From NCBI GenBank assembly GCA_001799395.1, contig MGTJ01000111.1, positions 1-42,934 on the forward strand: DNA of 42,934 bases. The letters run 5' to 3'. The notes beneath the pieces were generated by a model. That model worked only from the letters and a program-made list of their open reading frames with translations. It ran no database searches and was not told where the DNA came from. This DNA comes from Desulfobacterales bacterium RIFOXYA12_FULL_46_15 (GTDB lineage Bacteria; Desulfobacterota; Desulfobacteria; Desulfobacterales; Desulfobacteraceae). Position 1 is the first letter of the stretch; each line of letters begins with the position of its first letter. Below are positions 5,923 to 42,923 of the stretch, piece after piece. The position numbers and the translations under genes are program-made.

Positions 5923-8685
5923 CTACACTGTCTCAATCTTAATTGCACATACTTTATATTCCGGTATTTTGGCTGTCGGGTCCAGCTTTGCGTTGGTCAA
6001 TTCATTGGCAGCCGCCTCTGCAAAATGGAAGGGAATAAAAACTGTTCCTTCCACCGCCTTTGAGGATATTTTCAGCTTTGCACTGATTTTGCCTCTGCGT
6101 GAAGACACACTCACCATTGTACCTGTATCGAGGCCCAGTTTTTCTGCATCTGCCAAGGAAATTTCCACAAAACACTCAGGTGAAAGTATATTGAGTCCTT
6201 GTGTTTTCATGGTCATGGTCCCGGTGTGATAATGGTAGAGGACCCGGCCGGTGGTCAGGATCAAGGGATATTCCATGTCCGGGAGTTCGGCAGGAGGAGT
6301 GTGATCAATGACATGGAAAAGCCCTTTCCCCCGGGTAAACTGGGTGGTATGCAGAATGGGTGTTCCTTCATGGGCTTCAGTGGGGCAGGGCCAGTGGATG
6401 CCGGCCTTATCAAGCCTTTCCCAGGTGATACCTCTGTAGGAAGGAGTAACGGATGCGATCTCTTTAAAAATATCATGGCTGGATGCAAAGGTCATTTCAT
6501 AACCCATGCGTCCGGCAATATCACAGATAATCTGCCAGTCTTCCCTGGCTTCCTCCGGGGGGGCTACGGCTTTTCTGACCCGCTGGACGCGTCGTTCCGT
6601 ATTGGTGAAGGTCCCGTTTTTTTCGGCAAAACACAAGGCCGGCAAGACAACATCGGCCAATTGTGTGGTTTCTGTTTCAAAAATATCCTGGACAACAAGA
6701 AAATCTAATTTGTTCAATGCTTTTCGGGCATGGTTTAAGTCCGGGTCGGACATCATGGGGTTTTCACCTATGATAAAAAGGGCTTTAAGCTTTCCTTCAT
6801 AGGCTTTCTGAATCATTTCCGTAACGGCAAGGCCTGGTGCCGGGGACAGCCCTGTTATGTTCCATGCCTTTTCCATGCCGGTCCTGGCCTTTTCATCGCT
6901 GACGGGCTGATAGGCCGTGAACACATTAGGCAGTCCGCCCATGTCACAGGCGCCCTGGACGTTGTTCTGGCCGCGTAAGGGGTTTACCCCGGTGCCGGGT
7001 TTTCCTATGTGCCCGCACAGCATGGAAAGGTTGGCAAGAGATTTGACATTATCCGTGCCGCAAGTATGCTGAGTAATTCCCATGCAGTAGAGGATGGATG
7101 CGGCAGGGGCCTTTGCAAAAGCTTTTGCAACTTCAATAAGATCCTCTCCCTTGATGCCTGTGATTTTTTCCACATATTCAGGTGTGTATTTTTCAACAGA
7201 TGTTTTCAGCGCATCAAAATTCTCAGTTCTGTTTTTTATAAATGTCTTGTTCTGCAGGTCTTCTTTTATAATGATGTGCATCAGGCCGTTGATCCAGGCA
7301 ATATCGGTTCCGGGCAGCGGCCTGAGCCATTTGTCGGCATATTCTGTGAGTTTGATTTTTCTCGGGTCGATGATATAGAGCTTTTTGCCTTTCAGGGTGG
7401 CCCGTTTGACAAAGGCTGAAAGAACAGGATGATTCTCTGTGGTATTTGAGCCGACCACCAGGATCATGTCTGATGTTTCAATATCTGCAATGGTATTGGT
7501 CATTGCACCGCTTCCAAATGCTGCAGCCAGACCGGCTACGGTGGAGCTGTGTCAGAGCCGGGCGCAATGGTCTATATTATTGGTTTTCAGTACGGCCCGG
7601 GTAAATTTCTGGGCAATATAATTATCTTCATTGGTGATCCTGGCAGAAGTGAGAACCCCGATGCTGTCTGGTCCGGATTCTGATTTAACGGATAGAAGTT
7701 TTTTGGCCACAAGATCCAGGGCCTCATCCCAGGAAGCGTCCACCTGTTTCCCATCTTTTTTGATCAGGGGCCGAGTGAGACGTTCCGGGGATGAAACAAA
7801 TTCATATCCGAATCTGCCCTTGACGCAAAGGCTTGCATGATTGGGAGCAAGATCGGAATCCGCACCATTGATTTTAACAATTTTGTTGTCCTGGACAAAG
7901 ACATCCATCTGGCATCCTACACCGCAAAAAGAGCAGGTTGTCCTGGTTTTTTGAGTGTCTTTGAACCTGCCGTCCCTAAAGGGTTTGTCCGGTACCAGTG
8001 CCCCCACAGGGCAAGCCTGGAGGCATTCCCCGCAGAAAACACAGTCTGAATTTTTTAAAGTCATATCATCTTTTGCAATGATTTTAAGATCAGCCCCTGT
8101 ATATCCGAATTCAATGGCATTGTTGACCTGAATTTCCCGGCAGGCTTTTACACATCTTCCGCAGAGAATGCATCTTGAAAAATCCCTGATAATAAAAGGA
8201 TTGGCCCGTTCGGTTTCATATTTGCATTCCTTTGTCGGCAGTTGCCTCGTTTTTACCTGGTACCGGTAAGCAAGATCCTGAAGCTCACAATCCCCCCAGA
8301 CCGGGCACAGCTCTTCTGCCATATCGTTTTTCAACACCTTGAGCTGAAAGGATGTCCAGTCTGCTGCATCCACTTCCCTGGCGGCACAATTATGATTGCC
8401 TGAAGAAAGAAGCTTTGTGATGGCTTCTCTGCGTGCCTGAATCACTTTTGAAGATTCAGTAAAGACCATCATGCCGTGTTTTGCTTCTGTTGCACAGGAT
8501 TCAACAAGGCAGTCCTCCCCTTTTATTTCCACCTGACAGATTTTACAGGTATGGGTGGGGGTGGTATGTTTCAGATGGCAAAGGGTAGGGATTTCGATCT
8601 TGTTGCGCTGGGCAATTTCAAGAATGGTCTCACCCGGGTTAAATGCCAGATGGTTTCCGTTGATAGTGATAGTATGATGTTCCAT
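5923..8685 (-). CDS. fdhA: selenocysteine-containing formate dehydrogenase, catalytic subunit
   Basis: A 920-residue Mo/W-bis-MGD enzyme oxidising formate or reducing CO2. An in-frame TGA at 7552-7554 encodes residue 378: the reading DHCARL-Sec-HSSTVAGLA is the classic Sec-FDH active site, and a SECIS hairpin follows. The N-terminus is NuoG-like: a plant-type [2Fe-2S] site (C36, C47, C50, C64), a region with NHNC and later CPVWGDC, then two ferredoxin [4Fe-4S] motifs (CILCGRCVKAC, CVFCGECLQAC). The molybdenum domain begins with CSFCGVGC near residue 260. No signal peptide is seen, so it is cytoplasmic, resembling NAD(P)- or ferredoxin-linked FDHs. No fdhB/NuoF-like partner is adjacent; the divergent neighbour is an RnfB-like Fe-S protein, a possible redox partner (inference). 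Confidence 0.96.
7516..7554 (-). promoter_or_regulatory. bacterial SECIS element for selenocysteine insertion
   Basis: On the minus strand, 18 bases after the TGA, GTAGCC (7539-7534) pairs with GGCTGC (7528-7523, one G-U pair) and closes a five-base GGTCT loop. The GGUCU loop and the 18-base spacing are the same as I recall for Escherichia coli fdhF. This is the expected SelB-binding hairpin. Confidence 0.9.
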
Positions 8686-8730
8686 TATTTTTTTCCAGGT
8701 ATGATATTATAACAGTTTCGATCACTTGCC

Positions 8731-8774
8731 TTGACAATAAATAGTTTAGTACACTCTGGTTTTCTGATTGTCAA
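8731..8774. repeat. inverted repeat TTGACAAT / ATTGTCAA in the fdhA-rnfB-like divergent region
   Basis: TTGACAAT (8731-8738) and ATTGTCAA (8767-8774) are perfect 8-bp inverted copies 28 bases apart, bracketing the candidate fdhA promoter. This could be a two-site operator. It may also be an accident of two TTGACA-like elements. Confidence 0.35.
8746..8774 (-). promoter_or_regulatory. candidate sigma-70-type promoter for fdhA
   Basis: On the minus strand a perfect -35 TTGACA (8774-8769) is followed after 17 bases by TACTAA (8751-8746) preceded by TG, as in an extended -10. It lies about 60 bases upstream of the fdhA ATG. The -10 match is modest, so this is a prediction. Confidence 0.4.
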
Positions 8775-8805
8775 TGAAGCTCTGTAAAAAAATTTGTTGA
8801 TATTA

Positions 8806-8835
8806 TTGACTTTTCGTTTTTGAGGGGGTTATAGA
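8806..8835 (+). promoter_or_regulatory. candidate promoter for the RnfB-like fusion gene
   Basis: TTGACT (8806-8811) and TATAGA (8830-8835) are separated by 18 bases and lie about 40 bases before the ATG at 8878. A ribosome-binding site AAGGA is at 8864-8868. The match is five of six and four of six to the sigma-70 consensus. Confidence 0.4.
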
Positions 8836-8877
8836 GAAGTGGACGAATAAACACCAATCGGGTAAGGATATATATTC

Positions 8878-10944
8878 ATGTTACAATCTATTATTTTGAT
8901 GGGGGGGCTTGGTGTCATCATCGGCACTGTTCTGGCCATTGCCTCAAAGGCCTTTTATGTCTACGAGGACCCAACTGTAGTCGCCGTAGCCGGTGCCCTG
9001 CCTGGTGCCAATTGCGGCGGGTGCGGGTACCCGGGATGCAATGCCAATGCCGAAGCAATTGTAAAAGGCCTTTCGGCTGTAAATTCCTGCGTGGCCGCCG
9101 GAGCAGAGGTGGCCTTGGAGATTGCCGCCATCATGGGTGTGGCAGTGTCGGACAGGGAACCTGAATTTGCAGGGCCTGGATGTTATTACAGCAAGGATGC
9201 GGCTGATATGGAATATCAGTATCTCGGCATAACCGATTGCAGGGCGGCTGAAATGCTTTTCGGAGGGATGAAGGTCTGCAGGATAGGGTGTTTGGGGCTT
9301 GGGACCTGTGTGAAGGCTTGTATGTTCGGTGCCTTAACCATCGGCCGGGACGGGCTGCCCAAGGTTGACCGGAGCAAATGCACGGGATGCGGGGCCTGTG
9401 AAAGGGTTTGCCCCAAACATATCATCCGGCTCAGTTCTGTAACCCGAAGAATTTTACGGGAATATACTAGGGAAGAATGCTTGACCCCTTGCCAGCGGGC
9501 ATGTCCCACAGGCATCGACATCAAGGAATATATCAGGCTGATCCGTGAGGGGGATTATGAAGGGTCTGTTCAGGTCATAAAGGAAAGAAACCCTTTTCCA
9601 ACGGTTATTTCCAGGATATGTCCAGCCATATGCGAATCTAAATGCAGAAGACTTTTACAGGATGAATCCGTTGCCATTAATGGATTAAAAAGATTTGTCT
9701 GTGATTATGAAATGAATTTGAACCGCCGTGTTTTGCCCTATAAAGCACCGGCCACTGGTAAAAAGGTGGCTGTCATCGGCGGGGGTGTTGAAGGATTGTC
9801 GGTGGCATTTTTCAGTGCCAGGCTGGGTCATGAACCCACTGTTTTTGAGGCAACAGATTCTCTGGGCGGTATTCTTAGAAAGGCTGTCAAGAGAGAGAGG
9901 CTGTCGATGGATGTTCTGGATTGGGATATTGAAGGAATACGGCAGATGGGAGTTGATATCCGGACAGGGGCCAAGGCGGGAAAAGATTTTTCCGTTGACG
10001 GTCTTCTTAAACAAGGTTTTCATGCTGTTTTTACAGCCACAGGCGGATGGGATTCCAGGCTTCTCAGGGGGGATACGGATGAAGCAGAGACTGTATTTCC
10101 GGGTGCATACCTTTTTATTGATCTTTTAAGAAGTAAAGCAGATGATCATATCCGTATTCCTTCCGGGAAAAAAGTGGTGATCGCGGGCGGAGAAAGACTG
10201 GTGGCTGAGGCTGCAGAAATTCTAAGGGAAAACGGGTCAACAAACATTACCGTTATTTCAAGAAAAACCGAATCAGAACCCCTGTTTGATCGAGATACAT
10301 TGGAAAGACTTTCAAAAGCAGGGGCTGACGTTATTTACCATTCAGGGATTACAAAGGTAAAAGGTGAAGACGGCCGGTTAACATTAATTGAATATATGGA
10401 ACTTAATACAGGCGAGAAACACGATGTGGAAGCGGATCTCCTGATTATCGGTGCCGGCAGGTTTCCTGAGCTTGTATTTATTCCTGAAATAAAAGATCAG
10501 CAGGAAGGGAAAAGCGATCAACCGGAAAATCAAGGGCCTATGCTCTGGGAAGGGTATGAACTTCAGAAAAAACCGGCCGGAAAACAGGAATCCGGTTTCT
10601 TTTCGGACCAGGATGTCATCAGTGAATACGCTTCTGCCGTTTCAGCCATAAACGGCGGGAGAAAAGCGGCTGCCGCCATCCATTACAGGGTGACCCATAC
10701 CGGGTTCCAGGATGCGTCAGATATGATTACGGAAACTTCCATGCTTCAGGATGTTTTCATACTGAACAATGTAAATATGGTATCAAGAGTTATCATGAAT
10801 CCGGTAGACCGGATAAAAGGCACTGAGGATGAATTTTCAACCGGTTTTTCAGTGGAACAGGCAAAACAGGAAGCAAACCGGTGCTTGAAATGCGGTCTTG
10901 TCTGTTATGAAAAAACAAAGATAGAAGGGCAGGCATTGAAATAA
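8878..10944 (+). CDS. RnfB-like multi-cluster Fe-S protein fused to a degenerate GltD-like domain
   Basis: This 688-residue protein starts with one membrane helix (residues about 3-25), like RnfB. Then come the RnfB cluster C46-x2-C49-x4-C54-x16-C71 and two [4Fe-4S] motifs (CRIGCLGLGTCVKAC, CTGCGACERVC). Residues about 195-680 resemble the GltD/NADPH-oxidoreductase family, beginning with CLTPCQRACPTGIDI. The dinucleotide motif GGGVEG (301-306) survives. The NAD(P)H motif is reduced to AGGERLVAEAA (436-446), and the C-terminal 'GD' FAD motif is absent (ISEYASAVSAINGG). A C-terminal C669-x2-C672-x3-C676 remains. Compared with the intact paralogue at 39557-41650, this half looks non-catalytic. 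Its divergent partner is the selenocysteine FDH; I infer an electron-relay or membrane-tethering role. Confidence 0.85.
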   Translation: MLQSIILMGGLGVIIGTVLAIASKAFYVYEDPTVVAVAGALPGANCGGCGYPGCNANAEAIVKGLSAVNSCVAAGAEVALEIAAIMGVAVSDREPEFAGPGCYYSKDAADMEYQYLGITDCRAAEMLFGGMKVCRIGCLGLGTCVKACMFGALTIGRDGLPKVDRSKCTGCGACERVCPKHIIRLSSVTRRILREYTREECLTPCQRACPTGIDIKEYIRLIREGDYEGSVQVIKERNPFPTVISRICPAICESKCRRLLQDESVAINGLKRFVCDYEMNLNRRVLPYKAPATGKKVAVIGGGVEGLSVAFFSARLGHEPTVFEATDSLGGILRKAVKRERLSMDVLDWDIEGIRQMGVDIRTGAKAGKDFSVDGLLKQGFHAVFTATGGWDSRLLRGDTDEAETVFPGAYLFIDLLRSKADDHIRIPSGKKVVIAGGERLVAEAAEILRENGSTNITVISRKTESEPLFDRDTLERLSKAGADVIYHSGITKVKGEDGRLTLIEYMELNTGEKHDVEADLLIIGAGRFPELVFIPEIKDQQEGKSDQPENQGPMLWEGYELQKKPAGKQESGFFSDQDVISEYASAVSAINGGRKAAAAIHYRVTHTGFQDASDMITETSMLQDVFILNNVNMVSRVIMNPVDRIKGTEDEFSTGFSVEQAKQEANRCLKCGLVCYEKTKIEGQALK

Positions 10945-10985: not shown

Positions 10986-12959
10986 ATGAGACCGGAACAG
11001 ATACTAATTGTTGATGATGAAAAAAGGATCGTTGAGAATATCTCTCTTTGTCTGTTAAGAGAGGGATACCAGGCTGTCGGAGCTTACAGTGGGGATGAAG
11101 CGATTAAATTTTTTGAGCAGCAGAGATTTGATCTGGTCCTGCTTGATATCAGCATGCCCGGAATGAACGGATATGAGGTTATGGAGCATATTTACGGCCT
11201 TGATGATGAAGTATTGATTATCATCATTACCGGCCATGCATCCATTGAGTCGGCTGTCCGCGCATTAAAGATCGGGGCCTGGGATTATCTTAAAAAGCCT
11301 TTTGAATATGCCGATCTGATCAAAACGGTGAAGAACGCCCTTTCCCAGAAAAAACTGATTGCTGCTAAAAAAATTGTATCTGCCAGGCTTGAGGCTTCTG
11401 AAAGGCAGTTTGAATATATGGTGAACAATTCTCCTGATCTTATCTTCACCCTGGATCAGAAAGGGTGCTTTATTTTTGTGAATCACCAGTTTGAAAAGGT
11501 CCTGGGGTTCACAAAGCAGGATCTGATCGGGAAAAGTTTTAAAACCATTGTTCATAAAGGAGACCTGCCAAAAGTTGAGACACTGATAAATTATGATAAA
11601 TCCGGTTTTTCAGCCATAGATGGGAAAGACCTTCATTTCAGATTTTTGAGGGTGGAAAAAAACAAACCGGCCTATGGGAACTCTGACCCCTGTGCGTATA
11701 TGGAGCTTAAGACTTCTCCCATGCATCTTCCTGCCAGTGATGGGAAAGACGAATTCAAAGGCCTTTACGCCGTGGCAAGGGATGTGACGGACCGGATAAA
11801 TCTTGAAAATCAGCTCAGGCAGGCCCAGAAAATGGAAGCTATAGGCACCCTCGCAGGAGGTATTGCCCATGATTTTAATAATATCCTCATGGGCATCCAA
11901 GGGTATGCCTCTCTTGTAAAAAGCGGTTTTCCAAGAGAAAGTGATGAATATAAACGCCTTGCCTGCATTGATGACTATGTTTACAGCGGTGCTGAAATGG
12001 CCAGGCAATTGCTTGGGTTTGCACAAAAAAGCTTTCAGGAAATCTCTCTTGTCAATCTGAATTATCTTCTGAAAATGTCTGCAAAAATGTTCGGCCGCAC
12101 CAAAAAAGACATCCTGATTGAGCAATACCTTGCGAAGGATCTCTGGGGAACAGTCGTTGATGAAGGGCAGATCAAACAGGTACTGATGAACCTGTTTGTC
12201 AATGCCTGGCAGGCAATGCCCAATGGCGGCAAGATTGTTATCCGGTCCGAGAATAAGCTGGTGGATGAGCTGAAAGTGGATGAGCTTGGGCTTGAATCTC
12301 CCGGGACCTATGTCAAGGTTACAGTTGCAGACACTGGTATTGGAATGGAGGATGATATTATGTCCAGGATTTTCGATCCATTCTTTACAACCAAGGAAAG
12401 AGGTCAGGGTACAGGCCTTGGGCTTGCCACAACCTATGGCATCATTAAAAGTCACAAGGGTGCGGTAAGGGTTGAAAGCAAACCTGGAAAAGGCAGCTCA
12501 TTCATGTTTTTTCTCCCGGCCCAAAAAGCAAGGGTGGAAACTCCGAAAGAGCCTGAAGAAAAGTATACGATTATCAATGGAAAAGGGAATATCCTATTGG
12601 TGGATGATGAAAAAGGTGTAATAGAGGTTTGTTCTGAGATGCTGGAAACTCTTGGATATAACGTAACGGCAGTTTCCAGCGGGCGGGAGGCTATTGAAGC
12701 ATTAGGGTCCGGAGATGACAGACGGGATCTTGTTATTCTGGACCTGGTCATGCCCCAGATGAGCGGACAGGAAGCCTTTGAAAAGATAAGGGCCATTGAT
12801 CCGAATATAAAGGTATTGGTGTCTTCGGGCTACAGCAGGGAAGAGGAAATCGAAAAAATGATGAAGAAGGGCTGTGACGGGTATATCCTCAAGCCGTTTG
12901 ACATGGCGGCGCTTTCAAAAAAAATGGATTGTGTCTTGAAAACCCCGGAGAGGGTTTAA
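10986..12959 (+). CDS. hybrid sensor histidine kinase (REC-PAS-HisKA-HATPase-REC)
   Basis: A 657-residue cytoplasmic phosphorelay protein without membrane segments. An N-terminal receiver (residues 5-120, phospho-Asp54, Lys103) is followed by a PAS domain (about 140-270). The HisKA box GTLAGGIAHDFNNIL has His295. The ATPase domain has its N box near 402-410, ADTGIGM (448-454) and GTGLGLATTYGI. A second receiver follows (about 534-650, Asp586 in VILDLVMP). The GGIAHDFNNIL form is typical of the NtrB-like 'HDFNN' kinases common in Desulfobacterota. It begins 41 bases after the RnfB-like gene, so it may be cotranscribed and sense a redox or metabolic cue. No DNA-binding output domain or response-regulator gene is adjacent. 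Confidence 0.92.
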   Translation: MRPEQILIVDDEKRIVENISLCLLREGYQAVGAYSGDEAIKFFEQQRFDLVLLDISMPGMNGYEVMEHIYGLDDEVLIIIITGHASIESAVRALKIGAWDYLKKPFEYADLIKTVKNALSQKKLIAAKKIVSARLEASERQFEYMVNNSPDLIFTLDQKGCFIFVNHQFEKVLGFTKQDLIGKSFKTIVHKGDLPKVETLINYDKSGFSAIDGKDLHFRFLRVEKNKPAYGNSDPCAYMELKTSPMHLPASDGKDEFKGLYAVARDVTDRINLENQLRQAQKMEAIGTLAGGIAHDFNNILMGIQGYASLVKSGFPRESDEYKRLACIDDYVYSGAEMARQLLGFAQKSFQEISLVNLNYLLKMSAKMFGRTKKDILIEQYLAKDLWGTVVDEGQIKQVLMNLFVNAWQAMPNGGKIVIRSENKLVDELKVDELGLESPGTYVKVTVADTGIGMEDDIMSRIFDPFFTTKERGQGTGLGLATTYGIIKSHKGAVRVESKPGKGSSFMFFLPAQKARVETPKEPEEKYTIINGKGNILLVDDEKGVIEVCSEMLETLGYNVTAVSSGREAIEALGSGDDRRDLVILDLVMPQMSGQEAFEKIRAIDPNIKVLVSSGYSREEEIEKMMKKGCDGYILKPFDMAALSKKMDCVLKTPERV

Positions 12960-27649: not shown

Positions 27650-29527
27650 TTATGTCATGGTCTGGAGCAGCCTGTAGAGGGTCCGGCCGGCCAGGATATC
27701 ACCTGAGATAACGCCGATGACTTTATCGTCTTCCACAATGGGCATGGCGGATATATCATAATTTTCAAGTTTCCGGATGCAGTCTATGATACCGGCATCC
27801 GGGGTGGTGGTGATGACATCGGTGGTCATGACCTTTGTCAGGGGGGCATCCATGGGCAGTTTGGAGGCCATGGCCTTGGTAATGTCCCAGTTGGTGACAA
27901 TGCCGATGAGTTTGCCTTTTTCCGATACCACATTCACGATGGATACATGCGCTTCCACCAGAAGTTTTGCCGCATCGGTTACACTCTTGTCCACGCTGAT
28001 GGTGGGGGCATCTTCCATGATATCCCGTGCCGTCCTTGATTTTTCCATGGATGCGATTCTCCGGACGCTGATTTTTTCTGCAATCTCACAGGGAAGGCTG
28101 TCTGCATCCTTACAAAGACCGTCAATGAGTTCTTCCATATTCCTGCGGATAACGGTTTCAAGTTTTAAAACAGCGGCCTTTCTCCTGATTTCAGCCAGGG
28201 ATGAAAAATCATCCCTGTTTTTTTCAAGCCACCCTTCAATGGCGGCTGAATTGCCGAAGATATCTTTCGGAATCAAAAGATGGTCCGGAGTGGGCACGAT
28301 CCGTTCATGGGCCGCATAAATAACCCCGCCGGAATTTACAAGATAATCGGTGGCGATCAGAACGCCTTTATCCCTGTAAACATGACGCTCCATTCGCCTT
28401 CGCTCGGATTTCCGCTGCGGGTTCGGGGAATAGGTGTTGGCCCCTTCCACGATGATCTGCCAGGTGCCCATGCGGCTGGTGGTCATGGAGGGATTTGTGG
28501 ATTCATCCACATCCAGATAATTGAAGACCGGAGACGCCGGGACAAGGCAGAAGGCGGATTCGGTCAGAAGATTATCGGCAGCATTGGAAAAAATTATTTT
28601 CTTCGATTCCGGACCATCCTTGTCCATGACCTGGTCATGGAAATATTTCCGGGTCACGGCCCTGAATTGTTTCCACATGTCAAAAAGTTCTTTCCAGGGA
28701 AGGCCGTCGCTGTTCAGGAGATATCCGGTTTCATCGCTGATGCCTTTTATAATGGGAGCGTTATCCGGGTCATATTCATGGAAAATCCTTGCCACATGGG
28801 CGCCGACAGCTCCGAATCCCTGGATGAGAACATCCATTTTTCCCGGTTTCGGGAGGGTCATATTTTTAAACTGGGGCAATTGCCTGAGTTTGGGCAGATG
28901 TTCCAAAAGGGCTTTGGTGGCTACCACAATCCCGTTGGCAGCCCCGCCCAGTTCATCGATACGGTTTCCGCCCATGTCAGCTGGTTTGGAAACCACATTG
29001 TTAAGGCCGTTTTCAACGGCAAAGGTTTTCATATCTGCATCATTGGTACCCACATCCGGTCCTGGAATATAAATATCCTTGTACCGTTTCAAAAGTTGCC
29101 CGAATCCTTTGATGATGGCATGCCTATCGTTTTCGGAAAGGTTCTCCGGCTTTACAATGCCGGATTTCCCACCGCCAAAGGGGAGGTCTGCAGCTGCATT
29201 TTTAAGCGTCATCCCCCGTGCCAGGTTGTGAATGATATCCGGTGTGATATCCGGCAGCATCCTTGTACCGCCCATGGAAGGCTGCCCCATGGCCAGATTG
29301 TCCACAACCAGGTATCCGCCTATTTCAACAGGGCTTTCTTCATTCCACATACAGGAAACAAGGCGGGGTCCCAGTCGGTCCACTTTTATTCCCAGGCGCT
29401 GCAGCCGGTCGATATCCAGAGGTCCGAATTCAATAAACCGTAAGGGGCCATCCTTGATGAGCCGGTTTTTCCGGACATGCTCAGGCAGGGTATCATTTAG
29501 AAACTGATTCATTCTTGATGGAATCAT
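27650..29527 (-). CDS. Glu/Leu/Phe/Val dehydrogenase-family protein fused to two CBS domains
   Basis: A 625-residue fusion. Residues about 30-480 are an amino-acid dehydrogenase: GGTRMLPD, the substrate lysine in MTLKNAAAD (Lys109), catalytic Lys121 in PFGGGKSGI, the GPDVGTNDADM segment, and the NAD-binding IQGFGAVGAHVARIF (235-249). The family performs NAD(P)-linked oxidative deamination of an amino acid or the reverse. Residues about 500-620 hold a CBS pair (ARDIMEDAPTISVD and TKVMTTDVITTTPD), which usually binds adenosine nucleotides. A C-terminal CBS pair on this enzyme class is unusual and suggests energy-charge control. It is the last gene of an Lrp-PanB-unknown operon. Substrate is not assignable from sequence alone. 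Confidence 0.9.
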   Translation of the reverse strand: MIPSRMNQFLNDTLPEHVRKNRLIKDGPLRFIEFGPLDIDRLQRLGIKVDRLGPRLVSCMWNEESPVEIGGYLVVDNLAMGQPSMGGTRMLPDITPDIIHNLARGMTLKNAAADLPFGGGKSGIVKPENLSENDRHAIIKGFGQLLKRYKDIYIPGPDVGTNDADMKTFAVENGLNNVVSKPADMGGNRIDELGGAANGIVVATKALLEHLPKLRQLPQFKNMTLPKPGKMDVLIQGFGAVGAHVARIFHEYDPDNAPIIKGISDETGYLLNSDGLPWKELFDMWKQFRAVTRKYFHDQVMDKDGPESKKIIFSNAADNLLTESAFCLVPASPVFNYLDVDESTNPSMTTSRMGTWQIIVEGANTYSPNPQRKSERRRMERHVYRDKGVLIATDYLVNSGGVIYAAHERIVPTPDHLLIPKDIFGNSAAIEGWLEKNRDDFSSLAEIRRKAAVLKLETVIRRNMEELIDGLCKDADSLPCEIAEKISVRRIASMEKSRTARDIMEDAPTISVDKSVTDAAKLLVEAHVSIVNVVSEKGKLIGIVTNWDITKAMASKLPMDAPLTKVMTTDVITTTPDAGIIDCIRKLENYDISAMPIVEDDKVIGVISGDILAGRTLYRLLQTMT

Positions 29528-39556: not shown

Positions 39557-41650
39557 TCAACCCGCTTTTTTTGCAATAGGGAAATCCGTATCCGGATTAT
39601 AGCAGATTCTGCAGCAGTTAAGGCATCTCTTTGCTTCCTTATGTGCCTGATCTTCAGGCAGGACAAGATCCACTTCAATAAAAGAGTCAAGCCGTTCATT
39701 CACATGAAGTTCCGGTTGTTTTGCCCTGGAGGTTTTCTTTATGCCGTCAACTTTTTTGAAAATGGATTCATGAATCCGTTTTTTCTGGAGCGAATCTTTT
39801 ACCGGTTCAACAGCTTCTCCTTTCAGGAAGAGGTCAATGGAGCGGGCCGCCCGTCGTCCGCCGCCAATGGCTTCAACTACAAGAGAAGGCCCGGTGGCCG
39901 CATCCCCGGCAGTGAAAATATAGGGAATAGAGGCCTGAAGCGTAGCCGGGTTATTTTCAATGGTATTCCATCGTGTCAGTGCAAGTTCCTTCATTCTGGG
40001 CTGAGGGTCCTGGTCCTTGAAAGATGAATCCGGGCTCTGGCCGATGGCGGAGATGACCATGTCAACGGCAAGCAGGGTTTCAGACCCTTGAACCGGTTCC
40101 GGACGGCGACGGCCGCTTTTATCCGGTTCACCCAGTTGCATCTTAAGATATTCAAGATGGGTGACCTTGTTTTTGTCATCACCTTTCACACGGGTGGGAG
40201 CTGCAAGGAAGACAAATTCAATACCCTCATGTTCAGACGCAACAATTTCCACCTCATTGGCCGGCATTTCTTTTCTTGTTCTTCTGTAAACCATATATAC
40301 TTTATCAAGACCCAGCCTGAGAAGAGTTCTGGCACAATCCACCGCAGTATTCCCACCGCCGACAACGGCTGCGGTCCGGCCTAGTTTGATTTTTTCACCA
40401 CCAGAAATCCGCTGCAAGAAATTAATACCTGTATAGCATCCGTCGAGGTTTTCCCCTGCAATACCAAGGGAGAAATCTTCCCATGCACCCACACCAAGAA
40501 AGACAGCATTATAGCCAGCTGCCATCAATGAGCCAAGACCGAAATCCACACCGAATTTTACATGACAGAAGGATTTGATGCCAAGATCCAGTATTCCCTG
40601 GATTTCCCAGTCTAAAACTTTTTTCGGAAGCCTGTATTCAGGGATTCCATATCTGAGCATACCGCCAAGCTTGGGCATGGCTTCAAAAATGTCTGCCTGG
40701 TGACCGATTCGTCTCAGGAAAAAGGCACAGGATAGTCCTGAAGGCCCGCCGCCGACTACGGCAATCTTTTTACCCGTATCAGGTGCACATTTGATGGGTA
40801 TCCGAGACCCTGAATTCATTTCATAATCTGCTACAAAGCGTTTTAACTGATTAATGGAAACAGGCTCATCTTCAATACCTCTTCTGCATTCAGTCTCACA
40901 GGGATGGGGACAGACCCTGCCGCAGGCAAGGGGCAGGGGGTTACGCAAACGAATAGTCTGAACCGCTTCCTTATATTTGCCTTCCCTCAGCTGATTAATA
41001 TAGCGCGGTATATTGATTTCAGCAGGGCAGGTCTGGGCACAGGGCGCCAGGGGATCATATTTTTGATTGAATTTCATGATCCTTTCGGAAAGAGTCTTGA
41101 CCTCAATGATATTTTTGGGGCAGGCTTTCTGGCAGGCACCGCAACCCACACATTTTTCTTCATCCACCACAGGGTGTCCCTTGGGGCCCATGGAAACAGC
41201 ACCGAATTGACAGGCCTTTACACAGTCGCCAAGACCGATACAGCCCACACCGCAGACTCGTTTGCCGCCAAAGACAACGGACATGGCCTTACAGGAAGTA
41301 ACTCCCATATAATGGTATTTATCAGCAGCCCTGAAACCGCCTTCACACATATTATAGGATAAGGGTGTCTCGGCATTGCCGATTTCCACTCCCATGACTT
41401 TTCCGACAGCTTCAGCCCCGGCTTTGCCGGAAACAATGCAGATATTTGCAGGTGCTTTTCCGGAAACAATCGCAGTCGCAGCAGCAGAGCACCCTGCAAA
41501 GCCGCATCCGCCGCAGTTTGCACCGGCAAGGCAATTTTCCACCATAGCTATCCTCGGGTCTTCATAGACGTAAAAAATTTTGGAAGCAAGGCTGAGCACA
41601 ATAGCGCATACCGCACCAATGCCTGACATTAACAATATAGCTGGAATCAT
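39557..41650 (-). CDS. rnfB: RnfB fused to an intact GltD-like NAD(P)H:acceptor oxidoreductase domain
   Basis: A 697-residue protein. Residues 1-30 form the RnfB membrane anchor. The RnfB cluster C46-x2-C49-x4-C54-x16-C71 is followed by the ferredoxin motifs CGVGCIGLGDCVKAC and CVGCGACQKAC. The C-terminal 490 residues are a complete GltD-type flavoprotein: Fe-S cysteines (CAQTCPAEINI, CGRVCPHPCETEC), FAD motif VVGGGPSGLSCAFF, YGIPEYRLP, NAD(P)H motif VVGGGNTAVDCARTLLRLG and the terminal FTAGDAATGP. RnfB normally passes electrons between ferredoxin and the Rnf core; here it could also exchange them with NAD(P)H through its own domain. It follows rnfE and rnfA, the expected rnf order. Confidence 0.94.
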   Translation of the reverse strand: MIPAILLMSGIGAVCAIVLSLASKIFYVYEDPRIAMVENCLAGANCGGCGFAGCSAAATAIVSGKAPANICIVSGKAGAEAVGKVMGVEIGNAETPLSYNMCEGGFRAADKYHYMGVTSCKAMSVVFGGKRVCGVGCIGLGDCVKACQFGAVSMGPKGHPVVDEEKCVGCGACQKACPKNIIEVKTLSERIMKFNQKYDPLAPCAQTCPAEINIPRYINQLREGKYKEAVQTIRLRNPLPLACGRVCPHPCETECRRGIEDEPVSINQLKRFVADYEMNSGSRIPIKCAPDTGKKIAVVGGGPSGLSCAFFLRRIGHQADIFEAMPKLGGMLRYGIPEYRLPKKVLDWEIQGILDLGIKSFCHVKFGVDFGLGSLMAAGYNAVFLGVGAWEDFSLGIAGENLDGCYTGINFLQRISGGEKIKLGRTAAVVGGGNTAVDCARTLLRLGLDKVYMVYRRTRKEMPANEVEIVASEHEGIEFVFLAAPTRVKGDDKNKVTHLEYLKMQLGEPDKSGRRRPEPVQGSETLLAVDMVISAIGQSPDSSFKDQDPQPRMKELALTRWNTIENNPATLQASIPYIFTAGDAATGPSLVVEAIGGGRRAARSIDLFLKGEAVEPVKDSLQKKRIHESIFKKVDGIKKTSRAKQPELHVNERLDSFIEVDLVLPEDQAHKEAKRCLNCCRICYNPDTDFPIAKKAG

Positions 41651-41723: not shown

Positions 41724-42299
41724 TTATACCATTCCTTTAAAAGACATGAATGTCACTGAAATCATACCTGCGGTTATCAGCCCGATGGATACATCCTGTA
41801 AGGGTTTTGGGACCCTGGCCAGAAGAACTCTTTCCCTGACCCCGGCAAAAAGAATCAGTGCAAGGCCGAAACCGGCAGCATAAGCGAATGATGTTACAAG
41901 CGATTCAACAAATGTATATTCTTCTTTGATATTGATGAGGCATACACCCAGAACTGCACAATTGGTTGTAATCAGCGGCAGGAAAATTCCAAGTCCGGCA
42001 TACAGAGCAGGGATGCTTTTTTTCAGAAACATTTCCACAAACTGGACCAGGGCGGCAATGACCAGGATAAAGGAAAGTGTCTGCAAATATTCGACATTAA
42101 GGGCTTTCAGCATGTATTGGTTTACAATCCATGTGATAGCCCCGGCCAGGACCAGAACAAAAATAACAGCCATGGCCATACCGATGGCGGTTTCCATTTT
42201 TTTGGAGGTTCCGAGAAAGGGACAGTTGCCCAGGTACTGAGCAAGGAGAATATTGTTGATAAAGATGCAACTGATGACAAGAACAAATAGATCACCCAT
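41724..42299 (-). CDS. rnfA: Rnf complex membrane subunit A
   Basis: A 191-residue polytopic membrane protein with about six transmembrane helices. The sequence matches RnfA/NqrE: FINNILLAQYLGNCPFLGTSK at the N-terminus and IFLPLITTNCAVLGVCL in the middle, each with the conserved cysteine that together are proposed to hold an Fe-S cluster within the membrane. The Rnf complex couples electron flow between ferredoxin and NAD to Na+ or H+ transport. It starts 12 bases after rnfE and lies 73 bases before rnfB in one leftward operon. Confidence 0.96.
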   Translation of the reverse strand: MGDLFVLVISCIFINNILLAQYLGNCPFLGTSKKMETAIGMAMAVIFVLVLAGAITWIVNQYMLKALNVEYLQTLSFILVIAALVQFVEMFLKKSIPALYAGLGIFLPLITTNCAVLGVCLINIKEEYTFVESLVTSFAYAAGFGLALILFAGVRERVLLARVPKPLQDVSIGLITAGMISVTFMSFKGMV

Positions 42300-42311: not shown

Positions 42312-42923
42312 TTATGATTTTTTACCGATGAGGTTCATCAGGCAGAGCATGAGTCCAAGGCCGACAAAAGCACCGGGAGCTGTTAACAGGAATTTGAAGG
42401 GAAGGAAATCCGGACCCATGGTAAAGGCAGGTGTTCCACCCCAGACGGTCAGGGTTCCGTTTCCCAGGATTTCCCTGACAGAAGCGAGAGCCGAAAGGGA
42501 CAACCCGTATCCGATGCCAAGTCCAAGCCCATCGGCTATGGATAAAAGGGGTCCGTTTTTGTATGCAAAGGCTTCTGCACGGCCAAGCGGAATACAATTT
42601 ACAACAATCAAAGGGATGAATATGCCGAGCGTCAGGAAAAGTTCATAGGCATAGGCCTGCATTAAAAGTTCCACGATGGTTACAAAAGTCGCTACTATAA
42701 CAATGAAACAGGCAATTCGGACTTTTGACGGAATGATATTTCTGAGAAGTGAGATAAAAAGATTGGAGCAGACCAGAACAAAGGTCAGTGCGATTCCCAT
42801 CCCGATTCCGTTTTCAAGTGATTTGGTTACCGCAAGGGCAGGGCAAAGCCCCAGAACCAGTCTGAAAGGAGGTATCTCAGCCCAGAGTCCTTTGGTAAAT
42901 TCTTTTGCTAAGGATTGTGCCAT
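42312..42923 (-). CDS. rnfE: Rnf complex membrane subunit E
   Basis: A complete 203-residue RnfE/NqrD homologue with about six transmembrane helices. The N-terminal FTKGLWAEIPPFRLVLGLCP and the central FIPLIVVNCIPLGRAEAFA carry the conserved cysteines paired with those of RnfA. The ATG is 11 bases from the right window edge, so its ribosome-binding site is only partly visible. The preceding genes of the operon (rnfC, rnfD and rnfG in the usual order) would lie outside the window. Confidence 0.95.
   Translation of the reverse strand: MAQSLAKEFTKGLWAEIPPFRLVLGLCPALAVTKSLENGIGMGIALTFVLVCSNLFISLLRNIIPSKVRIACFIVIVATFVTIVELLMQAYAYELFLTLGIFIPLIVVNCIPLGRAEAFAYKNGPLLSIADGLGLGIGYGLSLSALASVREILGNGTLTVWGGTPAFTMGPDFLPFKFLLTAPGAFVGLGLMLCLMNLIGKKS

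Follow-up and report, generated by a model that had tools for sequence, protein, structure and literature searches.

An RnfB-GltD fusion lacking the NAD(P)H signature recurs beside formate dehydrogenase genes and may serve as an alternative RnfB

The large RnfB of the Tol2-type Rnf complex from Desulfobacula toluolica is a protein of about 700 amino acids (aa) that joins the RnfB iron-sulfur (Fe-S) clusters to a nucleotide-binding half, and the RnfC of this complex is described as lacking an NADH domain, with an electron partner that is yet to be identified (PMC5109826). A second report, at odds with the first, assigns the Rnf of D. toluolica to the C. tetani type (PMC4046663). Among soluble enzymes, a related GltD-like domain occurs in StnC, where R239 (R201 of NfnB) is near N5 of flavin adenine dinucleotide (FAD) and K170 is a ligand of the cluster beside the FAD (PMC10482914). 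Here we describe a protein of this kind from the same bacterial group as D. toluolica. The window analysed is a whole contig of 42,934 nucleotides (MGTJ01000111.1, G000:C111) from Desulfobacterales bacterium RIFOXYA12_FULL_46_15, whose 4.74-Mb assembly comprises 250 contigs and is 96% complete. It encodes two RnfB-GltD fusions, termed A (8878-10944, plus strand), which lies beside the formate dehydrogenase gene fdhA, and B (39557-41650, minus strand), the rnf-operon paralogue (Table 1). A literature search covering titles and the openings of abstracts found no description of an fdhA-linked RnfB-GltD paralogue. Among named records, the best match of the locus is a metagenome-assembled genome (MAG) of Desulfobacula sp. 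(L208; 78% identity).

The N-terminal half of A is that of an RnfB. It passes the RnfB profile TIGR01944 (74.1 bits, cut-off 68.7), carries a predicted N-terminal membrane helix followed by the four-Cys FeS domain (PF04060), and matches in sequence the RnfB chains 9eri_B and 7zc6_B, which we take to be from Acetobacterium woodii and Clostridium tetanomorphum. The Pfam scan further shows ferredoxin domains, Fer4_20 and Pyr_redox_2. A is encoded outside the rnf operon, ~28.6 kb from B and beside fdhA. An initial annotation, made from the sequence alone, had proposed that the anchor and all N-terminal cluster cysteines are kept with the spacing found in B, and this was borne out for 14 Cys: residues 46, 49, 54, 71 and 102 occupy identical positions in both proteins, and from 121 on (121, 134, 138, 144, 148, 168, 171, 174, 178) each lies one residue later in A than in B, with equal internal spacing.

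The GltD half differs from that of B at the nicotinamide site. Where B reads GGGNTAVDCAR, A reads AGGERLVAEAA, as annotated; two of the three loop glycines survive, and the N, T, A, D and R are lost together with the second Arg and the EMP of YRRTxxEMP. The YGIPEYRLP of B is likewise gone, replaced by KAVKRERLS, though the 'RL' Arg, the counterpart of StnC R239 in the alignment, is kept. At the terminus, AGD in B corresponds to SDQD in A, so that the reported absence of the terminal GD is correct for the Gly and incorrect for the Asp. The first Cys of CGRVC in B is Ile in A, the doubled Cys of RCLNCC is CG, and A has an extra Cys (201) with no counterpart in B. K271, in the Fer4_20 domain, aligns with StnC K170, and the C-terminal RCLxCGLVCY motif likely supplies the remaining Fer4_20 cluster ligands. 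Measured against a GltD/NfnB-type oxidoreductase, A lacks both NAD(P)H motifs (GGGN[TS]AxD and YRRTxxEMP) and has the FAD loop and the FAD-N5 Arg. It scores below the cut-off of the corresponding profile, NF009410 (PRK12771, GltD/NfnB-type NADPH oxidoreductase; 286.8 versus 516 bits), as does B (494.1 bits). An AlphaFold2 model of A gave a mean predicted local distance difference test score (pLDDT) of 74 and a predicted template modelling score of 0.75, with the GltD half mostly at 74-95; the model of B (pLDDT 61) was too weak for use. The best Foldseek matches of A in the PDB were the Caldicellulosiruptor NfnABC subunit (9bov_A), StnC (8oh5_C), Thermococcus NfnA and Pyrococcus NfnI (5jfc_L), at root-mean-square deviations of 15-17 Å over whole chains that serve to name domains and do not show pocket geometry.

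These changes are shared by a large clade. We searched one fixed sample of 58 related genomes, many of them MAGs, with identity thresholds (A 50%, FdhA 60%, RnfA 65%) that were chosen after inspecting the match lists. A was found at ≥50% identity in 43 of the 58, the window's genome included, three on fragments (G012, G022, G041); across 394 genomes of the phylum, 42 had an RnfB-GltD match of either type at 1e-100. In a quick tree of 97 proteins, for which SH-aLRT support was the only kind computed, a single branch (support 100) splits 34 B-type from 63 A-type proteins, the window's A among the latter. Five of the 102 extracted proteins had been excluded as shorter than 600 aa (L062, L063, L065, L073, L207), and the first three of these have fdhA beside A. 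GGGN[TS]AxD occurs in 0/63 A-type and 33/34 B-type proteins, the nearest misses in the A clade being GGGNASID (L181) and GGGNAALE (L177). The Asn of the loop is present in 6/63 versus 34/34, its Asp in 21/63 versus 34/34, and the second Arg of YRRT in 5/63 versus 33/34. At the terminal GD, A-type proteins have Asp in 42, Glu in 19 and another residue in 2, with the Gly in 24/63.

The flavin and cluster residues behave differently. The FAD-loop glycines, R341 and K271 are each present in 63/63 A-type proteins, the Glu after the FAD loop (E324) in 62/63 with Asp in one, and Cys 205, 209, 248, 252, 256, 669, 672 and 676 are invariant across 35 aligned proteins. The clade also has conserved residues of its own, such as P530 and W557. 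Judged by these motifs, the NAD(P)H signature has been lost across the clade and not through local decay; local pseudogenisation was ruled out by orthologues at 50-79% identity and by the invariant FAD and Fe-S residues. The view that A is no NAD(P)H oxidoreductase is thus supported by its sequence. The broader statement in the initial annotation, that nucleotide-binding signatures were lost, stands for NAD(P)H and goes too far for FAD, whose loop, Glu and N5-proximal Arg are retained; a loss of FAD binding is not indicated by these residues.

Comparison of sequence constraint in A and B locates the change within the protein. Mean pairwise identities were computed across 13 genomes that have both paralogues (78 pairs). 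The anchor and RnfB part (0.680 in A versus 0.684 in B), the ferredoxin part (0.685 versus 0.648) and Fer4_20 (0.727 versus 0.770) are followed by a first FAD part at 0.614 versus 0.718, an NADP domain at 0.375 versus 0.722, a second FAD part at 0.429 versus 0.689 and a C-terminal part at 0.433 versus 0.600. The membrane and ferredoxin half of A is therefore as constrained as that of a true rnf-operon RnfB, and on these identities relaxation is restricted to the GltD half and strongest in the NADP domain.

A is recurrently linked to fdhA, and B is not. An fdhA-like gene, labelled by a tblastn match covering at least one quarter of the query, lies within 4.5 kb of 33/63 A-type genes versus 0/34 B-type genes, counts that are biased by unequal flanks and contig ends (20/34 B loci have 4 kb, A loci mostly 6 kb, and some contigs are shorter). 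The neighbours at L190 and L191 were ruled out as formate dehydrogenases, being NuoG-NuoE fusions without PF01568 (the C-terminal molybdopterin-binding domain); setting them aside leaves 31/63. At L182, L185, L186 and L187 the fdhA-like match lacks the NuoG-like N-terminus. The initial annotation had named the absence of a recurrent linkage as a refutation, which these counts do not bear out; it had also placed A correctly beside a selenocysteine (Sec) fdhA and outside the rnf operon. In the window the Sec codon is an in-frame UGA at 7552-7554 (codon 378), and in most members of the window's family where the flank suffices, fdhA adjoins A. Desulfatibacillum alkenivorans DSM 16219 carries fdhA, A and RseC at one locus (L243). 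Loss of the NAD(P)H residues is not specific to fusions beside fdhA, since rnf-operon and HydBC-adjacent members share it. The fdhA label requires at least 11 changes on the tree, so that the link is scattered, without a single inherited block. As an observation apart, the fusion genes at L190 (2963-5875, minus strand) and L191 (8179-11157, plus strand) each join a NuoG-like molybdopterin protein and a NuoE/HydC domain and lie directly 3' of an rnf operon with an A-type rnfB.

Presence and absence across the 58 genomes follow the same pattern. Expressed as both / A only / FdhA only / neither, A (≥50%) and FdhA (≥60%) gave 43/0/2/13, and 15/0/1/7 for the other families of the order with one genome each (Fisher p=3e-5). 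B versus FdhA gave 37/9/7/4 (p=0.25, G024 left out as unclear). A shared dependence on the Wood-Ljungdahl route as the sole cause was weakened, since within the 42 genomes that have acetyl-CoA synthase the tally was 34/0/2/6, and the last six have neither protein. The acetyl-CoA synthase gene is on the same contig as A, ~11-26 kb away, in 9 of the 34 genomes with both (G005, G008, G009, G017, G026, G027, G033, G034, G047); it is also on A's contig in G042 and G044, but ~168 and ~238 kb off.

Evidence for a continued association with Rnf comes from gene order and from genomes that have no B. An A-type gene occupies the rnfB slot, after rnfE and rnfA, at 13/63 loci, all outside the window's order, and B lies in an rnf operon at 28/34 B loci. 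At L194 one strand carries rnfC, D, G, E, A and the A-type gene, followed after a 21-bp gap by a Sec fdhA (D and G were named by eye, and RnfC_N was below its cut-off). In the sister genomes G001 (97% complete) and G018 (78% complete), the operon rnfC, D, G, E, A has no rnfB, and the YceG-family gene that borders B in the window comes next after rnfA (64% and 62% identity). A search with the RnfB half alone at 1e-6 found one protein in each of these genomes, namely A. RnfA at ≥65% is present in 39/43 A-bearing genomes; with rnfA as query, 54/58 genomes gave matches at 1e-30, Nqr-like paralogues counted in. G038 (98%) has A and an rnf operon without an adjacent rnfB and is neutral in this respect because an RnfB-like frame of 333 aa lies elsewhere. 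In G057, where A and B are both absent, an RnfB-like frame of 271 aa likewise lies apart from the operon. The operons in question are L290 (G038) and L293 (G057); another that has no rnfB next to it is L291 in G037, where B is encoded elsewhere.

Taken together, these data lead us to propose, with a probability of about 0.5, that A serves as an alternative RnfB, blind to NAD(P)H, which connects FdhA with the Rnf core and is exchangeable with B. A would keep its flavin site and have given up hydride exchange with NAD(P)H. As a membrane-anchored wire it would bind FAD, contact FdhA and dock on the Rnf core, with electrons passing from FdhA to the Fer4_20 clusters and FAD, then to the ferredoxin-type and RnfB clusters, and on to RnfA/E/D/G; flow in either direction is conceivable. 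On its cytoplasmic side the Rnf core would thereby accept either of two exchangeable plugs, B serving NAD(P)H and A serving formate. The initial annotation saw A as a repurposed electron-relay or membrane-docking protein for formate dehydrogenase. The fdhA link agrees with this, and a departure from Rnf is not supported: A is probably still with Rnf, because its RnfB half is constrained like that of B, the rnfB slot is taken by homologues of A at other loci, and G001 and G018 yielded no RnfB-domain protein besides A. The pairing suggests that formate may be wired directly to the membrane in sulfate-reducing bacteria. Since A occurs with FdhA in 43/43 A-bearing genomes, formate becomes a named candidate partner for the Tol2-type Rnf. 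If true, this could explain how formate oxidation yields an ion gradient in complete acetyl-CoA oxidisers that use the Wood-Ljungdahl route, and Rnf would be able to change its cytoplasmic partner through RnfB exchange.

Several observations weigh against this proposal. FdhA occurs without A in G024 and G051. Eight of the 63 A-type genes, all within the order, sit with HydBC instead of fdhA, and at 14/63 loci none of fdhA, HydBC and rnf was found up to 4.5 kb from the A-type gene; in 8 of these cases flanks of at least 3 kb are present on both sides. The window's family has 28 A-bearing genomes, and 24 of these also have B, with A lying outside the rnf operon. No RnfA at ≥65% was found in four A-bearing MAGs (G010, G029, G030, G045; 68-83% complete). 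G001 and G018, the sole cases of Rnf with A alone, are sister MAGs and so represent one event; in G018, gatB stands in the place expected for fdhA, the G001 contig stops 265 bp upstream of A, and the FdhA of both (61-62%) is on another contig than A. Lastly, each NADP-loop glycine is present in 49-55 and the first Arg of YRRT in 53 of the 63 A-type proteins, so that the fold, and perhaps some ligand, may remain.

A bolder extension concerns RnfC. In G001, RnfC lacks a clear NADH domain, matching Complex1_51K at 21.1 bits (cut-off 31.2) and SLBB not at all, and the operon starts with a class III cytochrome c gene (the cytochrome was scanned for in G001 only). The combination opens the reading of a nicotinamide-free, formate-driven Rnf, in which plug A and a Tol2-type RnfC beside the cytochrome c gene would couple formate or ferredoxin to cytochrome c and an ion gradient. 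On present sequence data we regard this as tentative. We also considered whether an NADH site is retained in RnfC precisely in those operons whose RnfB lacks one, and set this aside for want of a clean pattern: Complex1_51K is below its cut-off or unlisted in 6/7 RnfC of A-type operons and strong in L186, and in three B-type RnfC it is above the cut-off in L196, below it in L202 and unlisted in L203.

Alternatively, A could be a membrane anchor or relay for FdhA alone, passing formate electrons to some other membrane or cytoplasmic partner with no Rnf contact. This would agree with the position of A alone beside fdhA in the window's family, with the rnf operon being held by B at 28/34 B loci, and with the four MAGs in which RnfA was not found. 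Those MAGs are 68-83% complete, and a relay of this kind sits poorly with an anchor and Fe-S part as constrained as in B, with homologues in the rnfB slot, and with G001 and G018, in which A is the only RnfB-domain protein found beside rnfCDGEA. We consider it unlikely.

Slightly less probable still is that A is a membrane-anchored third-substrate subunit of a HydBC (Bfu) bifurcating enzyme, with FdhA as a BfuA-like partner and HydBC lost in the window's lineage. The order HydC-DRTGG-HydB-A-RseC recurs within the order (L081, L083, L170, L217, L220, L225; no DRTGG beside L081), and 10/63 A-type genes, 8 of them in the window's order, have HydB or HydC at a distance of up to 4.5 kb. The HydB of L081 combines an FMN domain with N-terminal thioredoxin-like and C-terminal ferredoxin domains, as in the bifurcating core of PMC9304861. 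The N-terminus of FdhA is NuoG-like, and the nearest solved relatives of the GltD half are NfnABC and StnC subunits, which feed HydBC-like cores (PMC10482914, PMC9304861). Against this, Pfam finds no NuoG or Fer2 domain in A, and the window has no HydBC, so that A itself lacks the accompanying core genes seen at those 10 loci. Five genomes that are 95-100% complete and have A and FdhA (G005, G011, G023, G025, G034) gave no HydB/NuoF-like match at 1e-15; the A and FdhA pair thus exists without HydBC. The only HydB-like protein of the window's genome (54%) lies in another cluster (L297, G000:C200), together with a HydC-like gene and the gene of a small 2Fe-2S-type protein; FdhD-like and Etf-like genes were recognised there by eye.

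Continued use by A of a nicotinamide, or of some other nucleotide, at an altered site is improbable. The surviving loop glycines and first Arg of YRRT would allow it, as would the Rossmann-like region still predicted at residues 421-510 (block pLDDT 74-91), but the N, T, D and R of the loop, the second Arg and the EMP are mostly gone across the clade, and an NADP domain that drifts (37.5% versus 72% in B) is unlike a conserved new site. Least credible, to the point of being very improbable, is that the GltD half is a decaying pseudo-domain serving as a structural spacer without flavin: its second FAD and C-terminal parts diverge faster than in B and one Cys of CGRVC is lost, but the FAD loop, R341, K271, E324 and the cluster Cys are kept, and new clade-specific residues have become conserved.

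Other neighbours of A in the window include a gene for a hybrid response regulator/PAS/histidine kinase (10986-12959, plus strand), 41 bp 3' of A; a related gene (cluster c3) lies behind A in several sister loci. Further off (27650-29527, minus strand) is a gene for a protein resembling glutamate dehydrogenase, with NCBIfam matches to CBS-domain families in its C-terminal part.

Table 1. Coordinates and supporting evidence for the features discussed, in the window unless a locus is named
Feature	Position	Strand	Evidence or remark
A, RnfB-GltD fusion, 688 aa, NAD(P)H-blind as judged by sequence	8878..10944	+	Open reading frame; TIGR01944; NF009410; tree
Predicted RnfB anchor of A, N-terminal membrane helix, residues 2-25	8881..8952	+	AlphaFold2; PDB sequence matches RnfB 9eri_B, 7zc6_B
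RnfB Fe-S module of A, C46/C49/C54/C71 and two ferredoxin-type clusters (C134-C148, C168-C178)	8998..9411	+	Pfam FeS, Fer4
Fer4_20 (GltD/DPYD Fe-S) domain of A, residues 201-280	9478..9717	+	Pfam, 78.5 bits
FAD loop GGGVEG of A, residues 301-306, kept	9778..9795	+	Four Gly, each 63/63
R341 of A, aligns with StnC R239 / NfnB R201	9898..9900	+	Kept in 63/63 though YGIPEY is gone
Degraded NAD(P)H-binding loop of A (VIAGGERLVAEAAEILRE)	10177..10233	+	Motif columns; domain identity
C-terminal RCLxCGLVCY motif of A	10879..10908	+	C669, C672, C676 invariant in alignments of 11 and 35 rows
fdhA, 920 aa, NuoG-like N-terminus and molybdopterin domain	5923..8685	-	Pfam, NCBIfam
Intergenic region fdhA/A, 192 bp	8686..8877	.	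Genes divergent
B, paralogue with NAD(P)H and FAD motifs intact (comparison)	39557..41650	-	Adjoins rnfA/rnfE
rnfA	41724..42299	-	Next to B
rnfE	42312..42923	-	Adjoins rnfA; order same in rnf operons of B loci
rnf operons with the rnfB slot missing	L288 4007-9501 (G001); L289 1258-6896 (G018)		

The closest described systems each share part of this arrangement. StnC and NfnA, of StnABC and NfnABC (8oh5, 9bov, 9n5u), resemble A in having a GltD-like FAD domain that wires Fe-S clusters; they are the best sequence and fold matches of its GltD half, and the equivalents of R239 and K170 are kept in A. StnC is an NADPH-oxidising subunit with a NuoG domain (PMC10482914), whereas A is without the NADPH motif and without NuoG and has an RnfB module instead. 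The Bfu (HydBC-core) enzymes, Types 1-4, resemble the locus in that HydBC stands beside A in part of the order and FdhA has the NuoG-like N-terminus expected of BfuA; they differ in that the available part of their description mentions no RnfB-GltD subunit (PMC9304861), and the window genome's own HydBC lies elsewhere. Canonical RnfB (9eri, 7zc6) has the same anchor helix and FeS/ferredoxin module as A and no GltD half. The large RnfB of the Tol2-type Rnf (PMC5109826) is closely resembled by B; A differs from it in being without the NAD(P)H signature, in lying outside the rnf operon here, and in its link to fdhA.

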